Source: Sipunculus nudus | Lineage: Eukaryota; Annelida; Sipuncula; Golfingiida; Sipunculidae | Reading direction: 5' to 3' | NCBI GenBank assembly: GCA_026874595.1 | Contig: CM049306.1 | Coordinates: forward strand, 29,193,519 to 29,257,518 | DNA length: 64,000 bases | Shown: one piece after another, positions 3,520 to 63,702 of the stretch | Position numbering within the stretch: position 1 is the stretch's first letter | Layout: every line of letters begins with the position of its first letter | Made by a program: the position numbers and the translations under genes | Notes under the pieces: generated by a model | Told to the model about the DNA's origin: nothing | Databases searched by the model: none | Seen by the model: the letters and a program-made list of their open reading frames with translations, nothing else

Positions 3520-5232
3520 CTAGAATACGGGTAGTCGACAAGCGACTACTTGTATCCGCCTAAATCAGAGTGGAACGGGTGAAGTGTTGCATATCAGCAT
3601 GGATGTCTGCAGCCAAATTGTGTATGTAGGTTGCGCTACCTACCAAAAAATCCAGAAAGCCGTCCAAGTTGTATACATATGCAAAATTTAAGGCAGATAA
3701 GTCAAACCACTATATTGTATATGAGTGATTTTTGCCCTTGGCAGACAAACAGATGGACGCTGTGCCAAAAAGGGTTGCAGGTGGCGCCACCAGTTTAGCG
3801 TATGATAAAGAGCTTTGTGAGAACTATACACATGCAAAATTTTGGCCCAATCGGTCAAACGGTTCCCTAGATATGAGCTTGGATGTCTGCAGCGTAAACT
3901 TGATTGTAGGTGGCGCCACCTGTCATAAAATCAGAAAAGCTATCCAGGATGTATAAGCATGCAGAATTTCAGGTGAATTAGTCAAACCACTGCAGAGATA
4001 TGAGTGATTTTAACCCAAGGCAGACGAACAGCTGGACACTGTGCAAACATGGTTGCAGGTGGCGCCACCATTTTTTGTGTATGTTATAAAGCTCTCCAAG
4101 GGCTACATTTGTGCAAAAAAATTTTCCTGATCGGTCAAACGGTTCCTGAGATATGAGCTTGGATGTCTGCAGCGTAAACGTGAATGTAGGTGGCGCCACC
4201 TGTCATAAAATCAGAAAAGCTATCCAGGATGTATACGCATGCCAAATTTCAGGTGAATTAGTCAAGTCACTGCAGAGATATGAGTGATTTTAACCCAAGG
4301 CAGACAAACAGATGGACACTGTGCAAACATGGTTGCAGGTAGCGGCACCATTTTTGGTGTATGTTATAAAGCTCTCCAAGGGCTACATTTGTGCAAAAGA
4401 ATTTTCCTGATCGGTCAAACAGTTCCCGAGATATGAGCTTGGATGTCTGCAGCGTAAACGTGAATGTAGGTGGCGCCACCTGTCATAAAATCAGATAAGC
4501 TATCCAGGATGTATACGCATGCCAAATTTCAGGTGAATTAGTAAAGTCACTGCAGAGATATGAGTGATTTTAACCCAAGGCAGACGAACAGATGGACACT
4601 GTGCAAACATGGTTGCAGGTGGCGCCACCATTTTTGGTGTATGTTATAAAGCTCTCCAAGGGCTACATTTGTGCAAAAGATTTTTCCTGATCGGTCAAAC
4701 AGTTCCCGAGATATGAGCTTGGATGTCTGCAGCGTAAACGTAAATGTAGGTGGCGCCACCTGTCATAAAATCAGAAAAGCTATCCAGGATGTTTGCGCAT
4801 GCCGAATTTCAGGTGAATTAGTCAAGTCACTGCAGAGATATGAGTGATTTTAACCCAAGGCAGACGAACAGCTGGACACTGTGCAAACATGGTTGCAGGT
4901 GGCGCCACCATTTTTGGTGTATGTTATAAAGCTCTCCGAGGGCTACATTTGTGCAAAAAAATTTTCCTGATCGGTCAAACCGTTCCCGAGATATGTGGGT
5001 TTATGTGTGGAAACAGACGCACAAACGGACGCAGAGCCCAGAGGAAAGGTCAGAGGTCAAAACAAAATCAGGGCGCAGCAGTTCACATGTGACCCGAACA
5101 TAATCCCGGGTTTCGGAAAATTCCGCCCAGCGGTTACGGAGGAGTTCTCCGGAGACCTACGCGGCGGCGGCGGCGGCGGCGGCGTCCAGCTGAAAACATA
5201 GTATCCGCAAAACTCTGTTTTGGCGGATACAA
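3520..5232 (+). mobile_element. H element 1 (hairpin-ended, tandem internal repeats)
   Basis: The 5' end starts CTAGAATACGGG and contains a perfect 7-bp hairpin, GTAGTCG and CGACTAC, at 3531-3549. This is followed by TGTATCCGCC. The interior is a tandem array with a period of about 280 bp, best seen from 4059 to 5000. Each unit carries two GGTGGCGCCACC palindromes spaced alternately by about 130 and 150 bp (for example 3780, 3909, 4059, 4189, 4469, 4619, 4749 and 4899). Near the 3' end is a (GGC)n run at 5160-5183. The element closes with a 30-nt hairpin at 5201-5230 whose arms are GTATCCGC-AAAAC and GTTTTG-GCGGATAC. No transposase ORF is present. Short ORFs inside change frame between units because the period is not a multiple of three, so it is non-coding and non-autonomous. 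Confidence 0.8.
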
Positions 5233-5744
5233 TCAGATATATACATACTTTAATATTTTGTATAACTATTTGTCCCTAGGTACCTATGTACATGCCAGAA
5301 ATTATGTCAATATTGTGTAATATGTAGACATAGTGGGCATCACAATAATGTACCTTGTCAAGACTAAAGAGATATTGTGTCATACAGTCACAAATTCATA
5401 AATCACTTCATCAGCATAGTTAATCATAACATCATATCTGTCAAATTGAAAGCTTGCAGACTACCATACACTTTAGATCCTTCAACAAATAGCCTTATCA
5501 TCATTCTACTACTGCTTATTATTGCTGTCATTGCATTCATATTTGCTCAAATATATCACAATTTTCAACCCGTCCTAAATAAATAAAAAATAAACCCCTA
5601 TATTTTACTCTATTAATCCATCAGTCAGGTAATTTCATTTATCATTTACTCACATAATAGATTACATTCCTTTATAATAGCCCAACATGTCCATGATATT
5701 CATAAGCTTTATTGACTCGATATAGTATCACAGTGGAGAAACAT
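5233..5744. other. Intergenic spacer
   Basis: AT-rich DNA between H element 1 and P-type sequence. A 69-codon ORF at 5377-5586 has a hydrophobic stretch but no conserved features or supporting context, so I do not call it a gene. Confidence 0.5.
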
Positions 5745-6165
5745 TTAAAGTCCAATCACGATCAGCTGAGCGCCGTGACCCATGGGTCCCTTGTTTAAAT
5801 TATATAATACAGACCTAATTTCTGGCATGTACATAGGAACTATATAGAGGAATATTTATGGTAAATATGAGGAAAAACAGATGAGTGGTTTCAATATTAG
5901 GCAGTCCTGAAGTGTGAAAATAGGTTTTTAATAAAAAACTGAGGTTTTTTGTTAATTTCTCAAAGGAACGAAGTCGCAAAGACCCAGTTTTCTGCTTGGT
6001 AGGAGATCTTGGGGACATCTAACATTATGCCGAATTTGGATTCCTAGGTCTTACGGTTTTAAAATGTGCCACATCTACGGACGGACAGACGGACAGACTG
6101 ACGGACGACAGACAATGGACCACGACTATAGCTCAGATGACTTATAGTCAGCTGAGCTAAAAATC
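5745..6165. mobile_element. P-family element ends back to back
   Basis: At 5762-5800 lies the inverted P 5' end: the motif TCAGCTGAGC, then the palindrome GACCCATGGGTC, then CCCTTGTT. Directly next to it begins a second P segment in plus orientation that ends at the 3' hairpin 6130-6158. The body, about 5800-6060, is the same sequence as blocks at 160-400 and 990-1215. The two ends have opposite orientation, so this is a junction of two copies rather than one intact element. Confidence 0.65.
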
Positions 6166-6584: not shown

Positions 6585-7088
6585 AATCTAATTCACACTG
6601 TTTAAATATGAGAGATTTGTGAAGGATCAGTGAGATATGGTCTGATGCTCCTGGCCTCATGCATGACTGGCTACATGGGGACATACCTAGAACGAGACAT
6701 GGGGTTTCTCTGATTAGCAAAATCCTGAACTTACACTAAACATGTTAGTGAGTGATTAAGACATGATCAGGGGAGGGTTGTGAAGTCCCGTGTAACACCA
6801 GGTCTCACCAGTACAAATTATGTCAGTCCCCTGAGTATGAGCTGATCATGGTCTGAGACAACATACTGATGATATCAATATAAATATCATACAATCTGAT
6901 CCTAAGGCATTCATGATCCTTGCTCTTATACTGTACACATCTGATTTACATCCAACTCAACTGCCACCTACATATTGATTGTGGATTAAATTACTTTCCA
7001 CAGCAACGTACTGTAACTTTCACTTTGTAAATACTAGTGATACAATACACAGTCAAACAGAACTACAGCACTGGTTGAGTGAGGCATT

Positions 7089-8216
7089 ATGAAGTTCTTC
7101 AAGAGTCAAGTTAGTGGTGCTGGCAAGCAGCAGTACCAACAAAGTAGCTCAAAGACAGCCGCTGTCACAGCGTGTAGTCTACTGTGTATCCCTCTGACTC
7201 AACCAAAGAAGGCGACCTCATGCAGCACCAAAACAGCACTTGGGGACTGCTCCAGACAGTCGCCACTGGGAGCCCTACAACCTCCTGAACAGACTCATGT
7301 TTCAGCTGTGAATCCTGCTGATCTTACTTCACTTTGGGGGACACCAGCAACTGTCATTGACACCAAAACCTATGATGGTTCTACTGAGCTGTCAGCCAGC
7401 AACTACACTGATGACACAAAGTCAGCCAGCAACTACACTGATGACACAAAGTCAGCGAGCAACTACACTGATGATACAAGGCCAGAGATGGACCGGTCTG
7501 AGACCTGCCTTACCAGTGACATGATCCTCCCTGAACCTGACAAGGTAAAACCTGATGTCAGTACCATACAAGAAGCACCAGAAACCAGTCTACATGTCCA
7601 GTGCTCAGGAGAGAACATCAGACTTCCTGTGTCCAGCAGCATTAGCTACCCAAGAACCAGCTCCACCAGTGAGGCCAAGCGCCATCAGCACCCTAAAATC
7701 TGTGACATGAGTACCATTTCCTGCTGTGATAGTACCATGGACAATTACAGCCAGGAGCAGCCTGTCACTGGAGTTTCTGGTGTGTGTGACAGATTCCTAG
7801 GCTGTGACAGCTCAGCAGCAGCCAGTGACAGTTTGACTGATGTCACCTCCCACAACTTGGATAAAACCTTCATCATCCCCAGAGAGCAGGACAGAAGCCT
7901 ACACAGTTCAGGTTCTTCCCTCATGGAAGCTGCTCATCCTTCCTGGCTGACAATGAGCATGCTGGACTTGAACCTGGCTGTACCTGATGTTAAGAGGATC
8001 AGGAACACAGCAACATCCCGTCAGCCAGTGTTGTTTGTCAGGTCTAGAGGTAGTAAAGATGTGACACAGCCCACACAGGGTACCAGTAACCTGAGCTCAG
8101 AGGGAAAGTTTACACAGGAGTCACTCAGGAAGTTGGCAAAGAAGATGAAGAAGTTCAGGAACAGCTACTACAGTCATAGAGCTCATGCTGATGTCTGTAC
8201 ACTGGGACACTTGTAG
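7089..8216 (+). CDS. Uncharacterised Ser/Thr-rich protein, copy A (375 aa)
   Basis: Single open frame of 375 codons with no intron seen. I do not recognise the family. The protein is rich in Ser, Thr, Asp and Pro and looks largely disordered. A 10-residue unit (S-A-S-N-Y-T-D-D-T-K) is repeated three times at residues 102-131. The most conserved part between the two copies is the C-terminal third, which ends with a basic segment (KFTQESLRKLAKKMKKF, then NSYYSHRA) and CTLGHL. There is no signal peptide and no membrane segment. The start is chosen because the paralogue aligns from the same ATG and the upstream identity includes GAGGCATT just before it. It lies on the strand opposite to HTRA2. 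If the missing HTRA2 exons are further left, it lies inside that gene's intron. It could be the last exon of a longer gene, but the conserved upstream flank shows no other exon. Confidence 0.6.
   Translation: MKFFKSQVSGAGKQQYQQSSSKTAAVTACSLLCIPLTQPKKATSCSTKTALGDCSRQSPLGALQPPEQTHVSAVNPADLTSLWGTPATVIDTKTYDGSTELSASNYTDDTKSASNYTDDTKSASNYTDDTRPEMDRSETCLTSDMILPEPDKVKPDVSTIQEAPETSLHVQCSGENIRLPVSSSISYPRTSSTSEAKRHQHPKICDMSTISCCDSTMDNYSQEQPVTGVSGVCDRFLGCDSSAAASDSLTDVTSHNLDKTFIIPREQDRSLHSSGSSLMEAAHPSWLTMSMLDLNLAVPDVKRIRNTATSRQPVLFVRSRGSKDVTQPTQGTSNLSSEGKFTQESLRKLAKKMKKFRNSYYSHRAHADVCTLGHL
7392..7481 (+). repeat. In-frame 30-bp tandem repeat, three units
   Basis: Three direct 30-nt units lie inside the ORF at 7392-7421, 7422-7451 and 7452-7481. 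Each encodes a Ser-Ala-Ser-Asn-Tyr-Thr-Asp-Asp-Thr-basic decapeptide. The paralogue at 19590-20657 has one unit, so the array expanded after duplication or contracted in the other copy. Confidence 0.9.
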
Positions 8217-9815: not shown

Positions 9816-11729
9816 CACAGGGACGGAATGGGGGGGTTTTATTACTTAAACATAATTGTGAGCTGTTTCTGTATTAATGAGAATATAACAGATGAACCTT
9901 GGGGAGGGGATACCTACCGGGATACCTAAGACGAAAAGAGGAGAACATCACAGCAGTGATGAAGCAGACGAAGACGTCGTCGCCGGAACAGATGTAGGAG
10001 TCGAGGACGGTCTGGAGAACTGTAGGACCTCACCCGCCGAAATCACCGCGCCCAAGGAATAAGGGCCCGAAGCTTGTAACGTGACATCCGACAGATAGAA
10101 GCGGGGAAGGTAGAAGGCTACATCAAATAGCCTTTCTTGACCAGTTGGTTCGGGGAAATCCCCGATTAATGGGCCAAAGACGTAGAAATGGCCCTGACGT
10201 CATGAGCATTGACGGGAAGCTGCTCCAATGATGACTGAGAAGCAGATTCCTATGCTGAGACAATGGTAGCTTTTAGCCAGGCACTAATGGAGATAGGGTT
10301 AATTTCTTTGTTTGAAGTAGTGACTTTCGTTGAAATAAACAACTTCTTGCGCCCCCCCCCCCCCCCCAATTTGAATGAGTAGCTTTAAGATAGTTACGTA
10401 AAGCACGAACAGGGCAATGTTAGCCCTGTAACGGTACTGTCCATTAGGGAGGGCCAGAACGTGCCAAGGTAACGGAGGAACATCGAATGATGGTTTTGCT
10501 TATAAATTCCGTAGGGAAATGTAAGGTGGCCAATGAACCGTCTGCCACAAATTGTGGAAATTGCGAATCGGCCACTAGGGCATGAAGCTCAGAGTGGCGA
10601 CCAGCAGATGCAAAAGCAAGGAGGAAACCGTTTTCCGAGACAAATGCAGAAAATGCAACAAAGAAGCGGTACCTAATGGAGTCCGCGGAGGTGATGAAAG
10701 ACAATGTCCAGACGCAAGGAAGGAGGGACAGAGCGAGGATGAGAAGCGCGGCATGTACCCCATGATAAATCCGTCACCAACAGATGACGGAGGACACGAT
10801 CGTGACTCCGCGGACGGAGGACCGACAGAAGGGCGGCACGATAGCCACGAAGAGACGGTTAGGATAAATGGTTATCCAGTAGGAATGAAACAAAGAATTC
10901 AAAAAGCGCCGCAAGCAACAGATCTAAAGGAGATTCCATGGGCAGACGCCCAGCCGGTGAAGAGACGTCACCAGGAGTCAGAGATGTGGTCCGAAGAACG
11001 GCGACAGGGAGCCGAGGCAAAGAGAGCAGCCGGACGTGAAAGGACCTGATCCTTGAGATGACCGATGAGAGTACGCATGCGCACAGAGGGCACGACCAAA
11101 TTGGACGACGTGCTTGTGGGAACGACGGGAGATCGAGCTGGAGCGTTAGAATAAGCGGTGGTAGTGAGAAAAGCGAGCGCCACAGAGGAAACCAGGGAGT
11201 CGCAGGATGAATGGAAGGATGAGGAGGAGATCTGTCTGGTCCGCACGGGACAGACGGAGGAGGATACAGCGGATGAGACGGGGCACCGGAAAGGCATAGA
11301 GAAACCGGTGAGACCAAACGGATGGCGGGTGGGCGGGGAGACAGTCGTGAGGGCAACGAAGACGCGTCACGGTAGGAACGAGGACTGGGGGAGGAGAAAA
11401 TTGAATAGATCGAGATCCGGACGCCCCAGTCGAGTGAAGAGACACTGAAGTACGGAGAGCGGAAGGACGAAGGGCAGAGGTGGATACACGGGGCGATGTG
11501 AAAGGGGGTCTGTTATAAAGTTTGATACGCCCGTAAGATGAGACGCTCGGATCGAGGCCCGTAGCATTATACAGAGATCGAACAAGAGGTAGGTCTCCTG
11601 CATCAGTGAGGGAGACCGAGTACCGCCCTGCCCGTTTATATATGCCACCACCGTGGTGTGGTGGGTCAGGACGAGTATGTGACGGCCTAGTAAGCAGCGG
11701 GGACCAACGGGAGATCGCGCAACGGACGG

Positions 11730-12320
11730 CTAGAAGTTTGAGGACATGGATATGAAGGAGGCGTGCCGACGGGGACCAGACGCCCGAGGCGCAGAGAACT
11801 GCCATATGGGCACCCCAACCGAGGAGAGATGTGTCAGTAAATACCGTACAATCGATCCCCTGAGAGAAAGGAACTGCCTGAAGGAGAAAGGAAAGGTCCA
11901 GTCAGGGGCAAAGGGTCCGCCACGTACGTTGATACGGGAGGACCGCAGGACTAACTGAACGGAGAGGGAGAAGGCCGTGAGTGCGTAGGAGAGACTGAAC
12001 TGGATGGAGATATAACTGACCGAACGGAACAAAACGGCGGCCCAGGTGAGAGTGCCGTGAAGAGAAGCAACGGCACGAGAATCGATACGGCAAGACGCAA
12101 GAAAGGAACGAATATGCGTCCTGAGCTTGAGAGCAAATGCGCGCTGTAGAGATGCAGTCCCTGACGCAACATCGAGAGTCACACCCAGAAACTGTAAGGA
12201 TGGGGTGGGAGTGAGCTGGGACTTCACTGTATAGACAAGAAAGCCAAGGTTCCTGAGTAATTGAGCACCGGGGAGTGGTGCGCCAGTAAGAGAGAGCGAT
12301 CGGCCGCATGGATAAGCCAA
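11730..12320 (-). pseudogene. DIRS RT/RNase H continuation
   Basis: The minus frame carries QLLRNLGFLVY and then LQFLGVTLDVASGTASL, which match the region after the RT palm in DIRS and other retroelements. Further downstream in another frame (about 11367-11651) is RLGRPDLDLFNF, close to the G-x-P-D-x-D-L-F motif at the end of DIRS RNase H. Frame changes separate these pieces. Confidence 0.6.
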
Positions 12321-12385
12321 TCGTCTAGGTAAGCACAGATAGGCCCTGGGAGCAGAGGTAACGAGTGACCGTGTGGTCGACTTCG

Positions 12386-12956
12386 CTATTCCCTACAGCG
12401 TAAAAATCCAGGGCCCACACTGATCCCTAACTGAGGCACGTAATATAGACACGCGGTTCTGGAAGGCGAATCTAAGAAACGGTAGGGATGACGGATGGAA
12501 GGAACGTTACAATAAGCATCTGTAAGGTCTAATTTTGAATGCCCAAACCCTCCGACTGATAATGCAGAGAACCGCATGAATATTGAACATGCGAAAGGGC
12601 GGCGAGTTAATGACTGAACAGAGACGCTTGAGATCGATAATCGGGCGCCCCCGTCTGTGCTGTTTCGGAACCAGCAAAAGACGAGAGTAAAATCCCCGGG
12701 TGGAAGGGGAACCTTGAGAATTGCCCTCTTGTCGAGCAGAGACTGAATGGCCTCCTCCAACGCCAGAAGTTTGATCGGATCGGTGTAAGGCTGAGGGTAG
12801 AACGGTTGCAGGGTGACTGGAGGATCGTGCAAAAACGTAAAACGGAACCCGAACTTGATTGTGCTGAGAACGTTGTGACGTTATGCTCGCCCAAGCAGGA
12901 AAATAGGTTGCTTGGACAAGCGCCAACCGGACCGAATGAGTCATTTCTGGGTCCAA
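12386..12956 (-). pseudogene. DIRS reverse transcriptase fragment, frameshifted
   Basis: The frame opening at 12956 reads LLLVPKQHRRGRPIIDLKRL, the RT finger motif R-P-I-I-D-L-K. It ends near 12510. The frame opening at 12832 first reads ALEEAIQSLLDKRAI and later KLDLTDAYCNVPS and then YYVPQLGISVGPGF, corresponding to the palm region. The motifs come in the expected order but in different frames, so the gene is broken. The catalytic YxDD-like motif is not clearly visible. Confidence 0.65.
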
Positions 12957-13616
12957 CCTCAGCGCTAGGAACGACCGTGAAAAGGCTGTGCACGACTGGT
13001 ATGGCCGGAAGGACGGGACGACGGAGCTGGGGCCCGATGAGCCGATGAGAGGGCCGTACAGGAAGGCCGCGACCGCGGAATGTGGTTAGACGGGCGCGGA
13101 GGAGGGGTTGCCGACTGGGAGCGGACGGCCGGCCAAGGATCGCAGAACAGCCCGCCGGAGCAGCAGGAATCACAGGAAGCGAGGGCGGCTGAAATAAAGT
13201 GGAAGCAGGAGGGCCGGAATTACCTACCTCAGCTCTAAGAAGCCCCAAGGAATCCAGCGGGACAGCAACAGCCGGCTCCGTAGACAAGGAAGGAAGCCTG
13301 CGGGAGGCCGATGGGGAGGGCAGTTGTCGAAGTCAGAGAACCGGGTTGGAGAGGCAACCGGGCAAGCGGAGGCGGGTCTAGCCGAATCGTCTAGATCCAA
13401 CATCATTGAAGAGCAAATACGTGAGAGTTTACTCAAAATGGTATAAGCGGACTGGGGTCCGAATGTGATGAAAATAATAGGAAAGATTTTTAGCGGTAGA
13501 ACTACTGGGGAAGTAATTCACAGGTTGAAATGGATGGGGAACGTAACACGGACTGTTGCATCCACCTAAGGTAGGATCCCCCCCCCCCCCGGTGGGAACA
13601 ACGGGACCAGATAAGG

Positions 13617-13822
13617 TCACCGTGTTCGGGGAACCCCTACAACTGGGGAATGGGACCAGGCATGGAACATGGCCCACTTGTCAGAAGACCATGTCTGACA
13701 ATAGAAGCAGGGATCTGCAGGGCCCCAGCAGATGTCATTGTGTGAACGGCAGGTGAAACAAGTGGGTGAGAATCCCAAGTGGGGATTAAGTAACCACAAG
13801 AAGAACAGTAAGGGGTCTCCAT
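13617..13822 (-). pseudogene. DIRS Gag-like Cys-rich segment, frameshifted
   Basis: Two overlapping minus frames together give a cysteine-rich module: YCSSCGYLIPTWDSHP in one frame, then CFTCRSHNDICW and PCFYCQTW in the next. Spaced Cys pairs with a DSH/THP motif are usual near the start of DIRS Gag proteins. The switch of frame near 13770 shows a frameshift, so no intact product is expected. Confidence 0.55.
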
Positions 13823-14122
13823 GGCGGGAAGGGAAAAAGAATCACTACTTACAATTCAGTTGGCAAACCCGACTGTACAAACCAAAACAGTGGAAGAATC
13901 GCGCAGAGCGTGATCACACGACCATCATGGCTGACGCCAGAAGAAAGAGTGATTACAGGAAACGGAAGTGTGACCTAGATACACGGGAACGCGGCGGGTT
14001 GGGCGATAATAGGCCCAATAAGGGAAAATTTTCGGTTGGCTTACTCTGGCGTATAAACTTGAACAGAGAAAATTCTCATTAATACAGAAACAGCTCACAA
14101 TTATGTTTACGTAATAAAACTG

Positions 14123-16919: not shown

Positions 16920-18250
16920 AGACTTTAAAACAAGTGACCCAGGGGTCATGATGCTCAGCTAAGTAGGAAGACATTCACAAAAAGAATTTTATCAACAGAA
17001 TGCAAAATTTTGTAAGTGGTATCCTAATTCAACTGAAGCATAGCTCAGAAGATATGATTAACGGAGACTTTTTTTCTGGTTTCCAGAAGATTTATCATGG
17101 ACCTTCCTGAATGTCAAGTTAGAAGATTCAAGGTACAATGGTAACCATTTGTGCCCTGTTAACAGATGATCCCATCTTCGAAGGTCTAAAAAATAGGAAA
17201 AAAATGCGTAAAAATTAGAAAAAATCCAGGTGGTTCTACCAGTCTACAAGAACTGATGTAACACTCCATGATGAATGTGCATGCAAAGAATCATAGTGAA
17301 GAATGCACAAGTTCTTCAGAAACTGGAGGTTTTGTATCAAATTTTAAATTATATTGAGGGATATTTACAAGCCCTATAGCTTGAAGGATATGGGGAACAG
17401 AGACCTAATTTCAGGTTTCTATGGAGATTATACCATGGACCTCTCAGGATGTCAAGTTAGAAGTTTCTAGGTCCAATGGTTAGGTGTGTCCTGTTAAGGG
17501 ACAACCACATCTTTGAAGGTCTTAAAAATAGAGAAAACAATACGAAAAAAAAATGGATAGAATCCAGGTAGCACCACCAGTCTGCAGGAACTGAGGAAAC
17601 ACTCCATGATGAATATGAATGCAAAGAATCATGATGATCAATGTGTTAGTTATTCAGATACTGGAGCTTTTGTTTAATTTTTTTAAAATTATTTTGGTAG
17701 GTATTTCTGAGCCCCATAGCTTGGAAGATGTGGGTAACAGAGACTTAATTTAAGGTTTCCAAGGAGATTTTTTATGGACCTCCATGGATGTCAAGTTAGA
17801 AGATTCCAGGTCCAAAGGTTACGATTTGAGCACTGTTAATATACGACTGCATCATTGAAGTTCTCAAAAATAGAGAAAAAAATGCATAATAATTAGAAAA
17901 AAAAACAGATTGAGCCACCCTCCTGCAGGAAGTGATGAAAAACTCCAGAATGAATATGCATGCAAAGAATCATGGTGATCAATGCATCAGTTGTTCAGAT
18001 ACTGGAGCTTGTGTGTCAAATTTTTTATTATTCTGGAGGGGTACTTCTGAGCTCCATAGCTTGGAGGATTTGGGGAACAGAGACCTAATTTCAGGTTTCT
18101 TAGGAGATTTTTCATGGACCTCCCTGGATGTCAAGTGAGAAGATTCCAGGTCCAGAGGTTAACATTTGTGCCTGGTTAACAGACGGACAGACGGCCGAAC
18201 AAAAGGTGATTGCTATAGCTCAGATGACTTTCAGTCAGCTGAGCTAAAAA
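16920..18250 (+). mobile_element. P element 3 (near full length)
   Basis: The 5' end is ACAAGTGACCCAGGGGTCATGATGCTCAGCT, a mutated form of the GACCCATGGGTC palindrome followed by the GCTCAGCTGA motif. The 3' end is the AGCTCAG/CTGAGCT hairpin at 18217-18245. Between them are about four units of about 320 bp, each with CCTAATTTCAGGTTTC, ACCTCC(C/A)TGGATGTCAAGTTAGAAG and an element like GCAGGTGG/ACCACCAGTCTGCAGGAACTGATG. This is the cleanest P copy in the window. No protein-coding capacity. The same monomer occurs in inverse orientation at 48085-50845. Confidence 0.75.
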
Positions 18251-19074: not shown

Positions 19075-20700
19075 TCATTCATATTCACACTGCATAAACA
19101 TGACAGATTTGTCAGATATCAGGGTGAAATGGTCTGATGCTCCAGGCCTCATGCATGACTGGCTACATGGGGATATACCTAGATCAAGACACAGGGCTTC
19201 TCTGATTAGGAGAAGTCTAACCTTACACTAAACGTGTCAGTTAGTGATTAAGACATGATCAGGGGAGGGTTATGAAGTCCTGTGTAACACCAGGTCTCAC
19301 CAGTACAAATTCTGTCAGTCCCCTGAGTATGAGCTGATCATGGTCTTAGTCCACACACTGGTAATATCAATATAAATATCATACATTCTGACCCCAAGGC
19401 ATTAATGGTTTTTACTCTTTGCTGTACACATCTGAATTACAACTCTCTAGGTTAACTGCCAAGTACATATATAGTTTGTGGACTGATTTACTTCCTATAC
19501 ATTATACACTATCAAAACTTTCACTTTGTGATCACCAGTGATACAATACATCATCAAATAGAACTACAGTATTAGTACAGTGAGGCATTATGAAGTTCCT
19601 CAAGAGTCAAGTTTGTGGTGCTGGCAAGCAGTAGTACAGACAAGGCAGCTCCAAGACAGCCACTGTCACAGCATGTAGTCTACTGTGTATCCCTATGACT
19701 CAACCAAAGAAGGCAACCCCATGCAACCCCAAAACTGCACCTGGAGACTGCCCCAGACAGTCACCACTGGGAGCTCTCAATACTCCTGAAAATACGCCTG
19801 TTTCTGCAGTGGATCCTACTGATCTAACTTCACTGTGGGGGACACCAGCAACTGTCATTGACATTAAAACCTATGATGGTTCTACTGAGCTGTCTTCAAG
19901 CAACTACACTGATGATACAAAGTCACAGGTGGACAAGCCTGAGACTGTCCTTACCAGTGATATGATCCTCCCTGAACCTGACAAGGTAAAGCCTGATTTC
20001 AGCACCATACAAGAAGAACCAGAAACCAGTCTACATGTCCAGTGCTCATCAGAGAACATCAGACTTCCTGTCTCTAGCATCATCAGCTACCCAAGAACCA
20101 GCTCCACCAGCCAGGCCAAGTGTCATCAGCACCCTAAGTTCTGTGACATGAGTACCATTTCCTGCTGTGACAGTACCATGGATAATTACAGCCTTGAGCA
20201 GTCTGTCACTGGAGTTTCTGGTGTGTGTGACAGATTCCTAGACTGTGACAGCTCAGCAGCAGCCAGTGACAGTTTGACTGATGTCACCTCCCACAACTTG
20301 GATAAAACCTTCATCATCCCCAGAGAGCAGGACAGAAGCCTACACAGTTCAGGTTCTTCCAATATGGAGGCTGCTCATCCTTCCTGGCTGACAATGAGCA
20401 TGCTGGACTTGAACCTGGCTGTACCTGATGTTAAGAGGATCAGGAACACAGCAACATCCCATCAGCCAGTGCTGTATGTCAGGTCTAGAGGTAGTAAAGA
20501 TGTGACACAGCCCACACAGGGTACCAGCAACCTGAGCTCAGAGGGAAAGTTTACACAGGAGTCACTCAGGAAGTTGGCAAAGAAGATGAAGAAGTTCAGG
20601 AACAGCTACTACAGTCACAGAGCTCGTGCTGATATATGTACACTGGGACACTTGTAGTGGAGGTTCTCACTTTATATGAACTGATCCTCATCCAGTATAA
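19075..20700 (+). repeat. Duplicated segment, copy B
   Basis: Counterpart of 6585-8270 with the same order of conserved upstream blocks, ORF and first 50 bp of 3' flank. The two copies lie about 12.5 kb apart in the same orientation. Confidence 0.85.
19590..20657 (+). pseudogene. Ser/Thr-rich protein, copy B, with early TAG
   Basis: Aligned to the gene at 7089, the equivalent ATG is at 19590, but codon 15 is TAG (19632-19634) where copy A has CAG. Downstream the frame stays fully open to the same stop, with no frameshift. A shortened 320-aa product could begin at the ATG at 19695. The decapeptide repeat is present once. The C-terminal part, with the basic KLAKKMKKF segment and CTLGHL ending, is almost unchanged from copy A. 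A single nonsense change with an otherwise clean frame means either a very recent pseudogene, use of the internal start, or an assembly or population variant. Function is unknown. Confidence 0.6.
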
Positions 20701-21315: not shown

Positions 21316-21494
21316 CAATCCACATATCACCGCATATAACATATACTGCAATTCAAAGAAGGGGTTAAACTGTCAATGATATCTGATTTCCCAAAAGGCT
21401 AGATAATATCCTGGTACTAAACTGGTTGCATGTGAGTTTGACATTCAAACCAGAACTAGGTCTCCACTACCGGTACTTGACTTGTGCCACTTAC

Positions 21495-21609
21495 CTCGTT
21501 TTTCTAATTTTTGAGCTTTCTCTAAGAAAGTTTTTGCATAGTCTGCAGGAATAGCAAATGAGATGCCAGTGGTAACCTTCAAGGTGCTGATACCTATAGC
21601 TTCTCCCTC
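21495..21609 (-). CDS. HTRA2: HTRA2 exon 5
   Basis: Acceptor CTGCAG before 21609, donor GAG/GTAAGT at 21494, 115 nt, ending in phase 1. Encodes [21 protein letters not shown] and the helix leading to LEKR. The next exon (linker and PDZ) is not found between here and position 1. Confidence 0.92.
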
Positions 21610-41640: not shown

Positions 41641-41740
41641 TATATGTGTGTATGTGTGTTATGATAACCATATTGCTGACTAGAATGTTTGACAGGAGCA
41701 TTACCGTGTTAGTAGAAAGGTGTTCAGTTCTTCAGAAAAC

Positions 41741-46384: not shown

Positions 46385-47345
46385 TAAACATTAAAAACCT
46401 ATATAGCTGATTATCAAAGGACTACAATGACTAAAACTTATGAAGTATAAACTGATTAAACAATGAAAATACTAAGAGATTAAAAAGCGATTGACGAGTC
46501 AGAGTAAAAATTACAACTATGAATTAAGAACACTGGTAGAAGTAAAAAGTTAAAAATCATTTAAACAAATATATATAAATATATATTACGTACAACTATG
46601 AAGAATTGCAGTAAATGTGCATGAAGGTTCAAAGTGGATCATGAAAAATAAATTTAAAGAAACTTTTTGAAACTAAAAGGTTTCTTGCATCTGTAATGAT
46701 GCTAGAAAGTTTGTTCTAGGGCAGCATAACTGAAACACCATAGGTTTTAGTCATTATTTTTTTCGTGACTGACCTTTCAAGGCATTATAGGTCAGAACTA
46801 ATAGCTTGTATTGTATTCTGTCACGTTTTGGGAGCCAGTGTAAGTCTGCTAAAATAGGGGTTATGTGACAGTGACGGGCTGTTCTTGAGACTATATACTA
46901 CATTTGTGTTCTGAACTCTTTCTAATTTATCAATCTGAAAACTAGGCAACCCATAAAGAATATTGCAATGGTCCAGTCAGGACTTAACTAGTCCATGTAC
47001 AAGCGAATTTGTGACATTGTTATTAAGGTAGTGCCTAATCCGTCCAATCTTACGTAATTGTGTGTAACCTGCTCTGCATATTGAATTTACTTGTTTTTCT
47101 ATATTCAGGGTATTATCAAACACATCACCAAGGTTCCTTACTTGCGCTTTTGAAGACACCAAAGAACCACCTACATTGAGGGTTAAAGTGTTCAAATCTT
47201 TTAAAGTGTGTATTGAGGAGAAGATGATTACTTCCTTCTTATTGCCATTCAGTTCTAACATATTTCTTTGAATCATTGTGTCAGTCTCTATTACAAGATT
47301 CTCTAGGTAAGAGACAATGTCTGGTTGAATTGCTCTACTATTCGG
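46385..47345 (-). pseudogene. CR1/L2-like LINE reverse transcriptase, C-terminal part
   Basis: The minus frame at 47276-46977 reads MLELNGNKKEVIIFSS, LNVGGSLVSSKAQVRNLG, IEKQVNSICRAGY and LRKIGRIRHYL. This is the segment after the YADD box in CR1/L2-type LINEs. Further downstream, near 46860-46770, ADLHWLPKRDRIQYKLLVL and ALKGQ appear, the usual C-terminal motif. Stops interrupt it. The upstream half of the same element is at 50846-51790. Confidence 0.75.
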
Positions 47346-48084
47346 TTAAAATTAAAGGTATACTAAGATAAGACAAGATAAGATTAATTAGCCTTCAGTT
47401 CAAGGATTTTGTTGTTAATTTGCAATTCATGATATAAAAATAAATAAATAAATATAAAAAAATAATATATAAAAAAATAACACAGAACCTATTTGACTTT
47501 GCATGTAAAAATAAGCATGTAGAATGGATAAAACAGAGAATTCTGCAGCTAAAAAAGACAATCTAAAACATTAAACATCTAGAGGGTTGCGAGGTAATAA
47601 GTTTAATACTGTATGGCACAAGAGATTTTTTAAGGCGAGTAGTTCTACAGAATGTTCCATCTAAGCGTTTACCTGAAGGTAAAAAACTGAACTCTCAATA
47701 CATGGGATGTATTGTGTCGTTCATGAGCTTTGCTATGAAGGCCATTGATTTGGTTTCACAAATTTCCTGGTGTCTGGCAATAGAAGGACTAGTTATTCTA
47801 CAATTTATCTTCCTGGTATTATTTAGCAGTTTCTTTAACTTATCAGATATATTTGTAAGCCAGCACTCCAGTGAACAAGTTAGGACACTGGAAATGACAG
47901 AATTATAAAACATGGTAATAATGGTCTTGTCAATATATAGCCTTCTCAGATAATAAAGGTAATATAATCATTTGTTTTCTTTCTTGGATTGATTCAACAC
48001 ATGTTCTTTCCAATTCAGATTTCTGTCAAAAATATGTCCTAAGTATTTAAATTTGTCTACAATATTTACATCTTAATTTTAGGT
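47346..48084 (-). mobile_element. Second LINE 3' fragment
   Basis: The minus ORF 47913-47695 reads MFYNSVISSVLTCSLECWL and RHQEICETKSMAFIAKLMND, HPMY, the C-terminal end of another LINE RT, where Y-N-S-V-I-x-S-V-L is a common motif. Its 3' end has (AAAT)n at about 47441-47456. Related to but distinct from the surrounding LINE, into which it is inserted. Confidence 0.6.
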
Positions 48085-50845
48085 GGCAACTGGGTTAAAT
48101 ACACAATTTAATCTCTCCGGGGCTCCGAAGTACCCCCAGAATAATGGAAAATTTGATACAAAAGCTCAAGTAACTGAACAACTATTGCATTGATCACCAT
48201 GATTCTTTGCATGGATATTGATCATGGAATGTTTCATCAGTTTCTGCAGCCTGATGGCGCCATCTGTATTTTTTCGATTTTTACGATTTTTTTTCTATTT
48301 TGAGACCTCTTTAAGAGGCGGTCATCTGTTAACAGGGCACAAATCTTAACGACTGGACCAAGAATCTTGTCTCTTGACATGCAGGGAGGCCCATGAAAAG
48401 TCTCCTTTGAAACCTGAAATTAGGTCTCTGTTACCCATATCCTTCAAGCTATGGGACCGAAGTATACCTCAGAATAAAGGAAAATTTGATACAAAGCTCT
48501 AGTATCTGAAATACTACTGCATTGATCGCCATCATTCTTTGCATGAATATTGAACATGGAGTGTTCCATCAGTTCCTGTAAACTGGTGGTGCCACCTGTA
48601 TTTTTTTTCGAATTTTCACACATTTTTTTCTCTATTTTTTGAGGCCTTTAAATAAAGCCTCATCTTTTAACAAGGCACAAATCGTAACCTCTGGACCCAG
48701 AATCTTTATGCTTGACATCTAAAGAGGTCAATGAAAAGTTTTCATCGATACCTGAAATTAGGTCTCTGTTGCCCATATCCTCCGAGCTATTGGGCTTGTA
48801 AGTACCTCTAGAATTATTAAAAATGTGATACAAAAGCTTCTGTATTTGAATATTTAATTCATTAATAGCTATGATTCTTTGCCTGCTTTTTTTATCATGG
48901 AGTGCTTCATCAGTTCCTGTAAACTAGTGGCTCCACCTGTATTTTTTTTCGAATTTTCACGCATTTTTTTTTATTATTGAGACCTTCAAATGAAGCAGTC
49001 ATCTGTTAACAAGGCACAAATTGTCACTGTTTGGCCTAGAATCATCTTACTTGACAACCAGGGAGGTCCATGACAAGTCTTCATGGAAACCTGAAATTAG
49101 GTCTCTGTTACCCATATCCTCTGAGCAATGGGGCTCGTAAGTACCCCCAGAATAATTTAAAATAAGATTCAACAGCTTCTGTATTTGAATAACTAATACT
49201 TTGATTGCTATGATTCTTTGCATGCTTTTTGCTCATGGAGTGCTTCATCAGTTCCTGTAGACTAGTGGCTAACCACCCCCCCCCCCCCCCCCCCCCCCAT
49301 GAGGCATGTTGTTTTCAGTGCCATCTTCTGTCATCGTCGTCCTCATCTGTAGGATATCTTGTAAACGCGTTAACTTTTCAAGGTCTGCATATTTTCCGCC
49401 AAAATTTGAAACACTCAATTGTGAGGAGTTTGAAAACCAGTGACCTTGGCCTTCATATTCAAGGTAAAGTCTGCCGAAATGTGAAATTATTGTGAACCCC
49501 ATAACTTTTGAAGTTTTCCACATTTTCCCCTCAAATTTGGTACACATATTGTTCCTGCCAATTTCTTGGAAAATTTAGAAAACCGGTGACCTTGACCATC
49601 ATCTTCAAGGTCAAATCTGCCAAAGTGTAAATTTTTTTAACCCCATAACTTTTGAAGTATTAAACATTTTGTCCTCAAATTTGGCACAGCAATTGTTCCT
49701 ACTTAAATCAAGGTCAAGTTAAAAAAAACTGACTTTGACCATGATCTTCAAGATCAAATCTGCAGAAATATGACATTTTTGTGAACCTCATAACTTTTGT
49801 AGTATTTCTAATTTTGTCCTCAAATTTGGTACAACAAATTGTTACTACCAAGCTCTCAGACGAATTTGAAACCTGGTGACCTTGACCAGGATCTTCAAGG
49901 TCAAATCAGTGGAATTATAGTTATTGTCTTGTGGACGAGATAACTTTTGAAGGGCTGCATATTTTCCTCAAAAATTTGAAACACTCATTGTTCCTACCAA
50001 AATCGTGGACGTGATAGAAATCCTGTGACCTTGAACCTTGATCTTCAAGGTCAAAACATATGCAATTCTAGGCTTATTGTGACCCCAATAACTTTGTAAG
50101 TACTGAAGATTTTCTTCAAATTTGACACACCAGTTTTTCTGCCAAAATGTCATCAGAGTTCGAAAAGCAGTGACCTTGACCTTCAAAGTCTAATCTGCTG
50201 AGATCTAGATTCATTGTTTTGAGATATTGCATATTTTACCCCTTATGTTTTGGGATGAACCATCGGGGGAGACATATATCTGTTTTGCACTGCAAAAACA
50301 GAGCCATTCTAGTTTCGACTTTTTTAACACATTTTTATGTCTATTTTTGAGAACTTCAAATGAAACAGTTGTCCATTAACAGGGCACAAATCATGAATGT
50401 TGGACCTAGAATCTTCTAACTGATATCCTTAGAGTTCCATGAAAAATATCCGTGGAAAATTGAAATTAGGTCATGGTTAACTATATTTTGTAAATTAGGG
50501 GAGAAAACATGAGCACCAAGTGAGTCAGGTGGGGTACAAATTGTCTCCATTTGGCCTAAAATCCTCATACATGACTTTCAGGGAGGTCCCTAAAAATCTC
50601 CTTGGAAACCTGATATGGGCTTCATTCTAACCCATTTTCTACAAGCTGTGTGAAAGAACTTGATTTTTACACTAAATTTGTCAGGAGGACATGAATGGTA
50701 GCAGCTGCATGTAGATTTAGGTTACTCTAACATATATTTAAGGGCTATTGGCAAAATACATGATTTTGACTCAGGGGGTCTTTTTGCCCATTGTTTAAGG
50801 CTCCTTGAATTCAGCTGAGCGTCATGGCCCATGGGCCACTTGTTT
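48085..50845 (-). mobile_element. P element 7 (inverted), carrying an inserted Q element
   Basis: Its 5' end is at the right: AACAAGTGGCCCATGGGCC and GCTCAGCTGA in reverse at 50811-50844. About four or five units of about 330 bp follow to the left, each with GATTCTTTGCATG, CATCAGTTCCTG, (G/C)ATGGCGCCATCTGT or GGTGGTGCCACCTGT, and CCTGAAATTAGGTCTCTGTT. A separate element (49271-50310) interrupts one unit. No 3' hairpin is visible at the left edge. Confidence 0.65.
49271..50310 (+). mobile_element. Q element: C run, about 148-bp units, 3' hairpin
   Basis: Begins after CTAGTGGCTAACC with a C run (49274-49298). Six units follow with GTGACCTTGACC, TCTTCAAGGTCAAATCTGC and CCCATAACTTTTGAAG. Ends with GGGGGAGACATATATCTG and a hairpin formed by TTTTGC and GCAAAA, then TCTAGTTT. 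It splits a P unit, whose sequence resumes with CGACTTTTTTAACAC. Confidence 0.6.
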
Positions 50846-51790
50846 ATAGTTCTTAGGGCCAAAAAACTGACCTTTGGGGTATACCATATATACTTCGTCA
50901 CTACAGGTTTAGACTGTTCATCATTAACACAAACAATTTTATGTCTTTCAGTGAGGTATGATGTTAGTCATGCCAGTGGTTTCCCTGAAATACCAAAATC
51001 GTGTTTGAGACGTAAAAGCAGTGTCTTATGATCAATCGTGTCAAATGCAGCTGACAAATCAAGAGGAACGACCACAGACGCACGGCCTTGGTCACGTGAT
51101 TTTAGAATATCATTTTGTAATCTTAATAGGACAGATAAAGTTGAGTGGTATTTTTGATAGGCTTATTTAAAGATCTCATGGCGTTTCTTGGTTGAAATGT
51201 GCCGCTCAATCAACAACCTTTTCTATGACCTTGAACAAAAATAGGAGGTTCGCCACTGTTTTTTTGGTTTTTTTTTTTTTTAATTTAGTACATCAGGAGC
51301 AAGGTCTGGCTTCTTTAAATAGGGTCTGATATGAGCACACATGAAATATCCATGAACATAGCTGATATCCATGACGTATTGATAATCTTGGTTATGAGAT
51401 GAAGAAGTTCATTTAGACATTTCTTTATCAACAAAATAGGAACAGCATTTACATCGCAAGATTTGTCTGGGTATTGGCTAATAAGAGTATATATCTCTTC
51501 CTGTGTAGAAGGTACAAAAATACATAAAAGTTGGATTTATTATGAAGATTCATGTTGTGTATCCATGGTTGGATTAGAACTAGTCTGTAGATTACTCCCG
51601 ATGGTAGGTCTATCTATCATTTGTATGAAAAAGTCACTGAGCCTTTGTGCAAAATTTTTCTCTGGGTGGACCATTAGGTAGAAAGGCAGATTACTGCTAT
51701 CCTTCAAAATATTTTTTATGATCCTGTATATTTCTTTTATAGCATGACCACACTCCTCCAGTTTGTTTAAATAGTAGGATTATTTGGCTT
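50846..51790 (-). pseudogene. CR1/L2-like LINE reverse transcriptase, N-terminal part
   Basis: Minus-strand reading gives FVPSTQEEIYTLISQYPDKSC, KKCLNELLHLITKIINTSW, then VVVPLDLSAAFDTIDHKTLL and RLKHDFGISG, followed by a decayed GxPQGSxLGP region. These are the RT palm motifs (A-F-D-T-I-D-H). In-frame stops show it is dead. The element continues at 47345. The YADD portion is missing at the break. Confidence 0.75.
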
Positions 51791-59040: not shown

Positions 59041-59133
59041 AACAATACGTCCTATCGGGATACGCTTCAGTGGGTACGTCCCGGCGGCCTACGTCCCAAA
59101 AATCTGCGTCTCACCGGCCTGTAGTCGCCTTAA

Positions 59134-59953: not shown

Positions 59954-59974
59954 TCAAGTTACATTAATGAACAA

Positions 59975-60935
59975 ATAGTCCAACCAAGCTGCAATGATCA
60001 TGCACCCATAGTCCAACCAAGCTGTAATGATCATGCACCCATAGTTCAACCAAGCTGTAATGATCATGAACCAATAATCTGACCAAACTGTAATGATCAT
60101 GCACCAATAGTCAGACCAAGCTGTAATGATGATGCACCCATAGTTCAACCAAGCTGTAATGATGATGCACCAATACTCTGACCAAGCTGTAATGATCATG
60201 CACCCATTGTCAGACCAAGACCAAGCTGTAATGATATTGCACCAAGTCTGACCAAGCTGTAATGATCATGCACCCATAGTCCAATAAAGCTGAAACAATC
60301 ATGCACCAATAGTCCGACCAAGCTATAATGATCATGTACCAATAGTCTGACCAATATGTAATGATCATGTACCAATAGTCCAACCAAACTGTAATAATCA
60401 TGCATCTATAGTCAGACCAAGCTGTAATGATCATGCACCCATAGTCCAATAAAGCTGAAATGGTCATGCGCCATTAGTCAGACCAAGCTATAATGATCAT
60501 GTACCAATAGTCTGACCAATATGTAATGATCATGTACCAATAGTCCAACCAAACTGTAATAATCATGCATCTATAGTCAGACCAAGCTGTAATGATCATG
60601 TACCAAAAGTCTGACTAAGCTTTAATGATCATGCACCAATAGTCTGACCAAGCTGTAATGATGATGCACCAATAGTATGACCAAGACCAAGCTGTAATGA
60701 TCATGCACCAATAGTCTGACCAAGCTGTAATGATCATGCACCAATAGTCTGACCAAGCTGTAATGATCATGTACCAATAGTCAGACCAAGCTGTAATGAT
60801 CATGCACCCATAGTGCAACCAAGCTGTATTGATCATGCACCAATAGTCTGACCAGGACCAAGCTGTAATGATCATGCACCAATAGTCTGACCAAGCTGTA
60901 ATGATCATGCACCCATAGTCCAACCAAGTCCTACT
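59975..60935. repeat. 33-bp minisatellite, about 29 units
   Basis: The unit is GACCAAGCTGTAATGATCAT then GCACCAATAGTCT. Most copies are 33 bp. A few carry an extra GACCAA duplication or lack a few bases. The core ATGATCAT is a palindrome. On the minus strand it gives an 11-residue open repeat (D-Y-W-C-M-I-I-T-A-W-S), but there is no gene context and the frame shifts repeatedly, so it is not called coding. A block of six units (about 60290-60400 and 60480-60590) is itself duplicated. Confidence 0.9.
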
Positions 60936-60949
60936 GGCCTGTGGTTTGT

Positions 60950-62517
60950 CCTTTGACAAAAAAAGAAGGGTAATTTTTGTATGCCCTTTTATTTAAGCCT
61001 GTTATTCACATGTAGAAAAATAGATAAGTAGGTTTAATATAAGCAATCAGCATAAATGTAAGTAAATACAATGACATGGTTAACTGACATGCACCTTGGA
61101 TGGCACTAAAAGTTTTTAAAGAAAACATTTATCTTTAGTGCCACTTATAGCTGTCAATGTGATAACCAAGGAGGAAATTTAACAATATAGGGTTAAATTA
61201 AATTATCGTAAAAATAGACCATTCATTTTTATTCATGAATAGATAAAGTATTTAATAATCACATTATTACATCAAGACTGATCACAGTTGTTGGTAAATA
61301 CAATATGGTAAACAAATTTATAATCGATTTATAAATTTAAGAAAAATAAATCTTGACTAGTTATTTACTGACTAGAAAATATCACATTTTATAATACTAA
61401 AAATCCAATGTGAAAATTTAACTAGTAATTACACAAATTACAATTATAACTAGAAAAACAAGTTAAATAAATAATGATACCTTCATAAAGGTTAGCATTA
61501 TACTCAAAAGTGTATTCAGAAGACATGAGAATATGAAGTAAAATTATACAGACTTAAATTTTAAGTCAGTCTCCTCACAAGAAATAAACTATGAAAACAT
61601 TAATGTTCTGACTAAATACTACCCTGAGTAAAAGAAAAGTACATATAATACCCTTGACTTGAAAAGTAAATAATAAAAACCTTGATAGATTAACTTAGTC
61701 ATATTACAGCTCTGAGTTGTTGGCATTACAATGTAAAAAAAAACACAAATTCACTGTTTTCATTTGCCTGAATATTACACATTAGGTAAAACAATAAAAG
61801 TTATTGTTTTTACAGTTTTCTGAATTGATTAAAACAATGATTGGTTGTTTTCTTTCAAAATCAATGAAATTGATTGTAATTTTGCATAATCATTTAAAAA
61901 CAATTATGTATGCACATGCAAAAAATCAAAATAACCTGTCAGAGATATACAAACACAAAGTAACGAACAGCATCAAAACAGAACCTTGTGCAGCCAACAA
62001 TGGTCCGAAGGCAACTCCATGTGCAGGTGGATTGATGGTTTCATTATGAATACCAGTGTACATGTCAGACTTCTTACTAGGGCCAATATTGTAGGTCCTT
62101 CAGGCATGGCAAAATTGGGCAAACAATCTTTTCGTTCACCCGCAGGTTACCCAAACTGGATTTTTGTTCACCTAAATTCCTGGACAAAGCTATGGAAATT
62201 GATGAGGTTTATATGGTATAGAGACTGCTGTACAGGGGGTGTGTTTGTATGCTGGAATAGCCAAAAGAAACTGGGTTGTTCTCAATTGCAGTACTGAAGA
62301 ACTTTGTGACAATGACAAATTCCGTCGCTTTAATTTCCCATGAAAATCAGCAGTTGCAAGAGTTTGTATGCATTCCCATACGGTTTCTCCAGATATAGTT
62401 TGGCCTCACTGCTCACTCACGGGGCAAGTTCTTCTTCAAATGCACTTCAAAGAATCGACATTAAACGAGTGATCATTCAGTGTAGTGGGTGCAATAATCA
62501 CTCTTGTCTATGAGTTG
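60950..62517. other. Intergenic, AT-rich
   Basis: Very AT-rich to about 61900, then more balanced. ORFs of 81 and 103 codons near 61804-62297 have no recognisable features. No element ends found. Confidence 0.45.
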
Positions 62518-63702
62518 CTGTATCAGCCAAAACATAATTTTGCGGATACTATGTTTTCAGCCCACCGCTGCCACTGCCCCGCCACCGCCGCCGCCGCCCC
62601 TGCTGCCGCTGCATAGGTGTCCGGAGAACTCCTCCATAACTGCTGGGCGGAATTTTACGAAACCTAGGATTATGTTCGGGTCACATGTGAACTGCTGCGC
62701 CCTGAATTTGTTTTGACCTCGTGACCTTTCCTCTCTTGAGTGCATCCATCTGTGTGTCTGTTTTGACACATTAATCCACATATCTCGGGAACAGTTTGAC
62801 AATCAAGAAAAAAATTCTGCACAAATGTAGCCCTTGGATAGCTTTATAACATACATAAAAAATGGTGGTGCCACCTGCAACCATTTTTGCACAGCGTCCA
62901 TCTGTTCATCTGCCTTGGGATAAAATCACTCGTATCTCAGCATTGGTTGGACTTATCCACCTGAAATTTTGCATGTGTATACATCCTGGACAGCTTTCTT
63001 GATTTTATGACAGGTGGCCCCACCTACATTTATGTTTAGGCTGCAGACATCCAAGCTCATATCTCTGGAACCATTTGACTGATTTGGCCAATATTTTGCA
63101 TGTGTATAGATCTCACAGAGCTCTTCATCATACACAAAACAGGTGGTGCCACCTGCAACCATTTTTGCACAGCGTCCGTCTGTTTGTCTGCCGTAGGATA
63201 AAATTACTAATATCTCTGCACTGGTTTGACTTATCTGCCTAAAATTTTACAGGTTTATACATCTTTGATTGCTTTCAGGATTTTGTTGCAGGTGTCCACC
63301 TACATTTATGTTTACGCTGTAGACATCCAGCTCATATCTCTGGAACTGTTTCATTGATTGGGCCAAAATTTTGCATGTGTATAGATCTCATATAGCTCTT
63401 TATCATACGCAAAACTGGTGGTGCCACCTGCAACCATTTTTGCACAGCGTTCGTCGGTTTGTCTGCCATTAGATAAAATCACTCGTATCTCAGCAATGGT
63501 TTGACTTTTGCATTTGTTTACAACTTTGATAGCTTTCTGGATTTTGTGGTAGGTGGCACAACCTACATACACATTTTGGCTGCAGACATCCATGCTTATA
63601 TGCAACACACCTCACTCAATTTCCCCTTGTTACTCAATCCATGCCTCACTTTACCCATTCCACTCTGATTCCACTCTCGCTTGGCGACTACCCGTAATCT
63701 AG
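62518..63702 (-). mobile_element. H element 5 (inverted)
   Basis: The 5' end is at the right (CTAGATTACGGGTAGTCGCC in reverse, 63683-63702). The 3' hairpin is at 62520-62549 with GTATCAGCC and TGCGGATAC arms. The CCG/CGC-rich tract at 62565-62612 corresponds to the (GGC)n of element 1. Units carry GGTGGTGCCACC (62864, 63142, 63418) and GGTGGCCCCACC (63013). Same organisation as elements 1-4 with more point changes. Confidence 0.75.

Follow-up and report, generated by a model that had tools for sequence, protein, structure and literature searches.

Here, we analysed a 64,000-nt stretch of the Sipunculus nudus genome (hereafter the window; assembly GCA_026874595.1, contig CM049306.1, positions 29,193,519 to 29,257,518), which holds three repeat families, H, K and P, with unrelated sequences and a common layout. 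These families are very probably non-autonomous rolling-circle elements of the Helentron branch, i.e. short copies that keep the ends needed in cis and are mobilised by Helentron protein into oligo-T targets. The original prediction had made the same class assignment (HINE-type Helentron derivatives), and it was right; its support is partial and differs among the families, coming for K from two parent loci that carry both ends, for P from the 3′ ends of coding copies and for H from structure only. The further proposal that a single rolling-circle machinery mobilises all three is rejected, because K and the subgroups of P go with clearly distinct Helentron proteins and H is without an identified partner.

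Coding parents of the K family

The K family could be traced at both ends to coding elements. A 12,003-bp element (C3:41766495-41778497) carries the K 5′ end (33/33 positions) and the K 3′ end (33/34), with a Rep-domain gene between them, all three in order on one strand. The frames between its ends comprise 964 (with the Rep domain), 189 and 877 amino acids (aa), alongside two shorter frames (185 and 152 aa), and no K 3′ end was found at ≥65% between the 5′ end and Rep. DUF6570 is present, and the endonuclease end is 33–40% identical to the P-type ones. Behind the 5′ end, positions 85–1243 form a tandem array of 6.5 units of 180 bp, and a weaker relative of the array unit (67–73%) lies near the 3′ end, at positions ~11686–11791. 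At a second locus, on C5, where our reading covers the ends and the Rep match, the K ends are 12,384 bp apart by coordinates and the 3′ end follows the endonuclease. The Rep match there carries one stop, and the K 5′ end lies at most ~0.3 kb from the spot predicted by the C3 parent, with the K array behind it.

The window contains two complete K copies, both on the minus strand: 27650–29181 (1,531 bp, CTTG end), nested in a P element at 25393–30248, and 31155–32884 (1,730 bp, CTAG end). They align, array included, to positions 1–1243 (83% identity) and 1–1236 (85%) of the C3 parent, and their 3′ ends align to its last ~53 bp, the second copy with a small duplication. Because the short copies match the array-bearing start of the parent and its last ~53 bp, K is an internal-deletion derivative of a Helentron and its array is inherited from the parent. 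On this view, K arose when a 12-kb Helentron lost ~10.7 kb, everything from behind its array to the final ~50 bp. Since the array is part of the parent's 5′ leader, short derivatives can spread a satellite-like array without capturing it into each of them. Array-bearing HINEs are already known in bivalves, and what is new here is the link to K parents and the origin of the array, which had stayed open for the Cg_HINEs of Crassostrea gigas (PMC7492417; this and the other papers cited below were available to us in part, and our comparisons are limited to those parts).

Common layout and direction of the three families

On the reverse strand, H, K and P all read in the same order: a T-run, a 5′ subterminal inverted repeat (subTIR) that opens a 12–13-bp hairpin with a 3-nt loop, a tandem array, the inverse 3′ subTIR, a palindrome, CTAG or CTTG, and TT. 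K and P additionally have a short GTCC-like stretch between the 5′ subTIR hairpin and the array. This is the HINE order as published, and the direction of the elements is independently fixed, because the Rep gene of the K parents lies on that strand, between both ends. The orientation first assigned to the families must therefore be reversed: what had been described as a 5′ palindrome with CTAGA is the 3′ end of the element, and the supposed 3′ hairpin followed by A residues is its 5′ end, with the target T-run before it. Reading such families on the correct strand helps their annotation.

The subTIRs are exact inverses over 10 bp in H, 11 bp in K and 10 bp in P. Their placement is asymmetric, the inverted repeat being terminal at one end and ~20–30 nt internal at the other. 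Array units measure 280 bp in H, ~180 bp in K and ~340 bp in one P copy. Tandem arrays occupy most of H and K, and the earlier description of the interior as a tandem array applies to these two families; it fails for two ~4.9-kb composite P copies, which hold other insertions and one of which (25393–30248) keeps a broken endonuclease remnant.

The reported motifs and arrays are present in the window, the motifs at the positions given and above shuffle expectation. Allowing up to one mismatch and comparing with 100 dinucleotide shuffles, we counted 14 matches to the H motif (shuffle mean 1.49), six to the K motif (0.23) and four to the P palindrome (0.09), some of the motif matches not being element ends. 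A scan for the whole layout (arm, palindrome and CTWG, with a hairpin-starting inverted arm 0.2–5 kb away) returned four matches over both strands, which correspond to three elements (H 3520–5231, K 27650–29181 and P 847–5793), and none in 20 shuffles read on one strand each. The scan was not blind, because the motifs were already known when it was written, and it overlooks K 31155–32884 and decayed copies. Thus, the claim that H, K and P share one layout in spite of unrelated sequences is borne out, and this layout is that of HINEs and Helentrons.

Hairpin geometry of the element ends

Folded as single DNA strands and scored against shuffles, all three families adopt the same form at their 5′ ends, in the order H, K, P: an outer stem of 7–8 bp, a one-base flaw, an inner stem of 5 bp and a 3-nt loop (z = −7.97, −4.99 and −5.37, respectively). 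The flaw is a bulge in H and a 1 × 1 mismatch in K and P. In the complete H element, the 5′ subTIR and hairpin (5199–5231, minus strand) form stems of 8 bp and 5 bp separated by a single unpaired base and capped by a loop of 3, with a DNA fold of −10.9 kcal/mol. When two further P copies were folded, one kept the form and the other had a larger internal loop. The 3′ palindromes are weaker, with z = −2.94 for H (7-bp stem) and −2.59 for K.

Bacterial HUH transposases bind flawed hairpins. We hypothesise that the Helentron Rep reads the shape of the hairpin rather than its sequence; a common hairpin shape in unrelated end sequences makes this a testable idea for Rep recognition.

The window also holds a possible fourth HINE-like family (26264–27252, plus strand), nested in P 25393–30248. 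Its 5′ end (26264–26296, plus strand) folds as a flawless 14-bp stem with a 3-nt loop, behind which GTCT repeats and a 331-bp array follow. A relative of its start occurs at the C4 locus L003/L004, and its 3′ end was not found.

Insertion sites

One K copy lies in a gamma Helentron, where the empty site reads ATTTTTTCTTGTTG and the filled site ATTTTTT-element-TTCTTGTTG, a gain of two T. P 847–5793, inserted in another P, shows ~3 T more than its relatives. Both empty sites thus point to insertion into a T-run with no duplication beyond 2–3 T, and the long target duplications that would have refuted the rolling-circle reading appeared at neither of them. As to the other refuting condition, autonomous relatives with these ends and a DDE transposase, no search aimed at it was made, and the parents examined encode Rep/helicase/endonuclease. 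For H only flanks were seen: in a case of H inserted in H, no long duplication is visible and the number of T is uncertain. In each of the 20 P 3′ flanks sampled, CTWG is followed by TT, of which the search pattern forced the first T only. The flanks of 15 of these 20 match no other sampled flank, and the other five lie within P-type repeats.

Search for the parents of P and H

The Rep domain PF14214 gave 143 genome matches in frames of up to 2,426 aa, some loci giving two. The 3′ flanks were read at 54 loci picked from these matches, 144,850 bp in all, over 1.8–3.2 kb at 50 loci and 3.2 kb at four 20-kb loci; more distant element ends would be overlooked, because the flanks extend only this far. 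P-type 3′ ends (≥75% identity) stand on the coding strand at 20 of the 54 Helentron loci and on the opposite strand at two, both of which also have a coding-strand P end. Genome density predicts about two P ends per strand by chance in 144,850 bp, a rough expectation because the identity and pattern thresholds differ. K ends numbered two on the coding strand and none on the opposite one, and H ends one and none. The full-length Rep-encoding relatives with the same ends that had been anticipated thus exist for K (both ends, two loci) and, at the 3′ end only, for P, and none was found for H at the 54 loci.

Sites of one P subgroup share their sequence up to the P end and differ from one another beyond CTWG. 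There are two types of P palindrome, GACCCATGGGTC and GGCCCATGGGCC, which differ in both arms. The last ~126 bp of a beta-type P in the window (48120–50842, plus strand; 3′ end at 50811–50842) are 83% identical to the beta Helentron L011; position 48120 marks the array start only, the 5′ end not having been found. The composite P 25393–30248 carries, directly before its 3′ end, a decayed gamma-type Helentron endonuclease remnant (25471–25662, minus strand; 59% identity over 64 aa, E = 7e-18). The position of this remnant beside the terminus suggests that this P copy, too, is a deletion derivative.

The Rep domain scores well by profile. Pfam domains in one A-type and one P-alpha parent comprise DUF6570, an OTU or Herpes_teg_N protease, Helitron_like_N, PIF1 and Exo_endo_phos, and the endonuclease motifs GDFN, LID and SDH are present at many Helentron loci. 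A Rep/helicase joined to a C-terminal endonuclease distinguishes Helentrons, OTU proteases being a further product (PMC4067079). The P-alpha frame seems broken near its C-terminus.

A-type Helentrons remain candidates for the H parent, their 3′ ends lying beyond the stretches read. These Helentrons (L001–L006, with 2,229–2,426 aa, and L017, L023, L035–L037, L042 and L054) have long arrays after the stop codon. In two P-alpha Helentron copies, L007/L008 and L032, an H element occupies the identical place, from which it seems that H was carried along with the Helentron.

Copy number in the genome

Pattern counts over both strands of the 1.43-Gb genome, with the patterns read backwards as controls, gave 14,317 H 3′ ends (30 nt, ≤3 mismatches), 4,822 K 3′ ends (34 nt, ≤3 mismatches) and 42,072 P 3′ ends (a pattern with N places, ≤2 mismatches), 61,211 in total; each reversed control gave 0. 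Exact H 5′ ends number 3,251. Among the matches listed for the first 21 Mb of one chromosome, an H 3′ end lies on the same strand and 0.3–4.5 kb downstream for 35 of 69 exact H 5′ ends, against 6 of 69 in the other arrangements. In the window, 28.6% of the sequence falls within intervals assigned to H, K and P. From these counts and intervals, it is plausible that the three families make up a large share of the genome, as had been supposed; a mean rolling-circle share of 5.91% is given in connection with bivalves (PMC10294476).

Weighing the Helentron assignment

If H, K and P are Helentron derivatives, a Helentron protein (Rep, PIF1-like helicase, AP-type endonuclease and protease domain) would nick both element ends in trans, and one element strand would be copied into an oligo-T target. 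Short copies would need to keep in cis the 5′ subTIR hairpin, the 3′ subTIR, the palindrome and CTWG. We infer the strand chemistry from the class of element, and likewise infer the recognition of hairpins by Rep, the same mechanism for H and current activity of the families.

Several observations weigh against this assignment. Although exact, the two forms of the P 3′ palindrome show no folding advantage over shuffled sequence (z = +0.70 and −0.48). Some of the 20 coding-strand P ends may be chance neighbours, as at L012 and L014, where P ends occur on either strand. Reading of the 6–15 kb ahead of Rep in four P-type Helentrons (15 kb at one gamma locus) revealed no P 5′ end, and neither did the upstream sequence at the C17 locus. 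The P-alpha Exo_endo_phos match scores 23.1 bits, under the Pfam cut-off of 24.5. The empty site of P in P is inferred from diverged relatives. As for H, no parent was found in the 54 loci and two further stretches, and the single H match, at L052, is at about chance level and sits on an H array, with no tie to a coding element.

The last of these points bears on the alternative that survives best, namely that H is part of another mobile system and has its layout in common with K and P through convergence. The 54 loci without an H partner are what this would lead one to expect, but H has its hairpin geometry, the placement of its subTIRs and its CTAG/TT in common with K and P, and we regard such convergence as improbable. 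Markedly less credible still is the idea that the families are miniature inverted-repeat transposable elements (MITEs) derived from a DDE transposon that moves by cut and paste and is bounded by short terminal inverted repeats. Inverted repeats of 10–11 bp do lie close to both ends; however, only one of the two copies is terminal, the other lying ~20–30 nt inside, target duplication at the two sites amounts to no more than 2–3 T and has no fixed length, and a Rep-domain gene stands between the K ends in the K parent, so that for K the MITE reading is largely refuted. We give as little credence to canonical Helitrons (Helitron1), with 5′ TC, a 3′ hairpin, CTRR and insertion between A and T. The CTAG that follows the 3′ palindrome in H, in K and in some P would fit them. 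However, the elements do not start with TC, commonly end in CTTG, have TT as their 3′ flank and possess inverted subTIRs, and an endonuclease is encoded by the examined parents; together, these features rule this reading out. Finally, although arrays account for most of H and K, a purely satellite origin, with the hairpins as satellite parts and the arrays spread by recombination without transposition, is scarcely conceivable, being refuted by T-run insertions with empty relatives and contradicted by the ends common to coding elements and by the 15 of 20 sampled P flanks that match no other.

Relation to known elements

Cg_HINEs resemble H, K and P in their 5′ subTIR with a complementary repeat, their array and their 3′ subTIR with a palindrome; they likewise insert into a T-rich target without duplication, and they have a GTCC-like microsatellite on the 5′ side, where K and P have a GTCC-like stretch (PMC7492417). 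Their array units are mostly 140–180 bp. Cg_HINEs could not be related to autonomous Helentrons, and whether their array was captured or is intrinsic was left open (PMC7492417), whereas the parents of K are identified and are themselves array-bearing. Among the literature considered by title and the start of the abstract, which is not a full survey, no paper linked a bivalve HINE to a parent. The bivalve elements Pearl, DTC84 and MgE, with short central arrays, are alike by description (PMC7492417).

DINE-1/HINE elements and Helentrons resemble H, K and P in their subTIRs, a palindrome near the 3′ end and a TT target with a variable number of T, and DINE-1/HINE elements also in having Rep/helicase/endonuclease parents and arising as internal-deletion derivatives; by description, their end sequences are set apart from those of H, K and P (PMC4067079). 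The Helitron2-type FoHeli elements of Fusarium have asymmetric inverted repeats, as here, and FoHeli1 and FoHeli2 bear a hairpin at each end, but these elements differ in end sequences and target, and their description separates Helentrons by the endonuclease (PMC5148889).

Strand agreement between neighbouring copies

We also considered whether the strand of Helentron insertion is directed by the host chromosome, such that different families within ~100 kb share a strand more often than by chance, and find this doubtful. Under such a view, Rep would paste single strands into one template of the replication fork, as do IS200/IS605 in bacteria, for which fork-linked orientation has been described (PMC5371812). 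Tests were run on exact end lists from the first ~28 Mb of one chromosome, the list for one exact P 3′-end variant being confirmed by its reverse complement, which returned the same 100 sites. Exact H 5′ ends and this P variant agree in strand in 54 of 73 pairs at 2–100 kb (p = 0.0007 against a shift null of 0.495, the lowest p among 18 cross-tests), in 33/45 within 50 kb (p = 0.02) and in 95/148 within 200 kb (p = 0.04). Same-strand pairs of the P variant with itself number 10/13 at 2–20 kb, 18/23 at 20–50 kb, 17/23 at 50–100 kb and 30/40 at 100–200 kb, and 124 of 175 pairs still agree at 400–800 kb. Counting against strand direction, H agrees with H in 18 of 38 pairs at 2–100 kb, and beta P with the P variant in 15 of 25, which is not significant. 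Beta P and H agree in 10/16 pairs, also not significant, and in 23/36 within 200 kb (p = 0.05).

A first, stronger signal of same-strand runs was withdrawn, the underlying P list having lacked exact sites and those compared being all on one strand. On C1:64037-27601282, the P variant has 25 minus and 3 plus copies in 0–3 Mb, and 12 plus and 2 minus in 24–27 Mb; genome-wide it is near balance (1499 plus, 1394 minus). A non-Helentron control was sought without success; a 26-mer from a long interspersed nuclear element (LINE) remnant in the window had one genome match at ≤3 mismatches. The 20 P flanks show no A/T skew (−0.022), and a T-rich strand therefore does not explain the strand choice. The 12 P flanks set apart as not nested have a GC skew of −0.168.

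Element inventory and other features of the window

The complete H element (3520–5231, minus strand) has both ends exact, with the 5′ end at 5231 and the 3′ CTAG at 3520, and lies inside P 847–5793. Its array of 280-bp units spans 3591–4995, its 3′ subTIR (3551–3560, minus) is the exact inverse of the 5′ one, and its 3′ palindrome GTAGTCG/CGACTAC (3531–3549, minus), with a 7-bp stem, is what had been taken for a 5′ hairpin. Another H (22954–25009, minus; 3′ end 36/41, 5′ end 35/40) is split by an inner H nested in it (23442–24352, minus). An H at 45420–46384 (minus) has degenerate ends (3′ end 30/41, 5′ end 36/40), and one in the opposite orientation (62518–63702, plus; 5′ end 36/40, array at 62850–63507) has a decayed 3′ end (24/41).

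Among the P elements, P 847–5793 (plus strand) has both ends, and uninterrupted relatives of its target are found in L028 and in P 25393–30248. The outer P into which it inserted is represented by its 5′ part at 5794–6158 (minus); this P continues below 847, and its 3′ end was not found. A short P at 16931–18245 (minus) contains the array of ~340-bp units. The composite P 25393–30248 (minus; 5′ end 47/50, 3′ end 27/32) holds K 27650–29181 and the fourth-family candidate. At 41740–41771 (minus) there is a P 3′ end with CTAG, for which no 5′ end was found.

Exon-like frames resembling an HtrA-type serine protease gene extend over 21448–34974 on the minus strand, with Trypsin_2 at 25084–25347 and the frames at 21448, 22336 and 34384 assigned by eye. 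This interval has five copies of H, K and P, all on the minus strand, and the fourth-family candidate, on the plus strand. LINE reverse transcriptase remnants (46980–51779, minus) are interrupted by P 48120–50842; RVT_1 at 50971–51162 is below the cut-off, and the remaining remnants were judged by eye. Two frames, at 7083–8213 (377 aa) and 19635–20654 (340 aa), look alike by eye and have no Pfam match at E = 0.01. Positions 10000–14000 have a GC content of 0.54, strong GC and AT skew and several overlapping long frames, and an array of ~29 units of 33 bp occupies 59967–60928.

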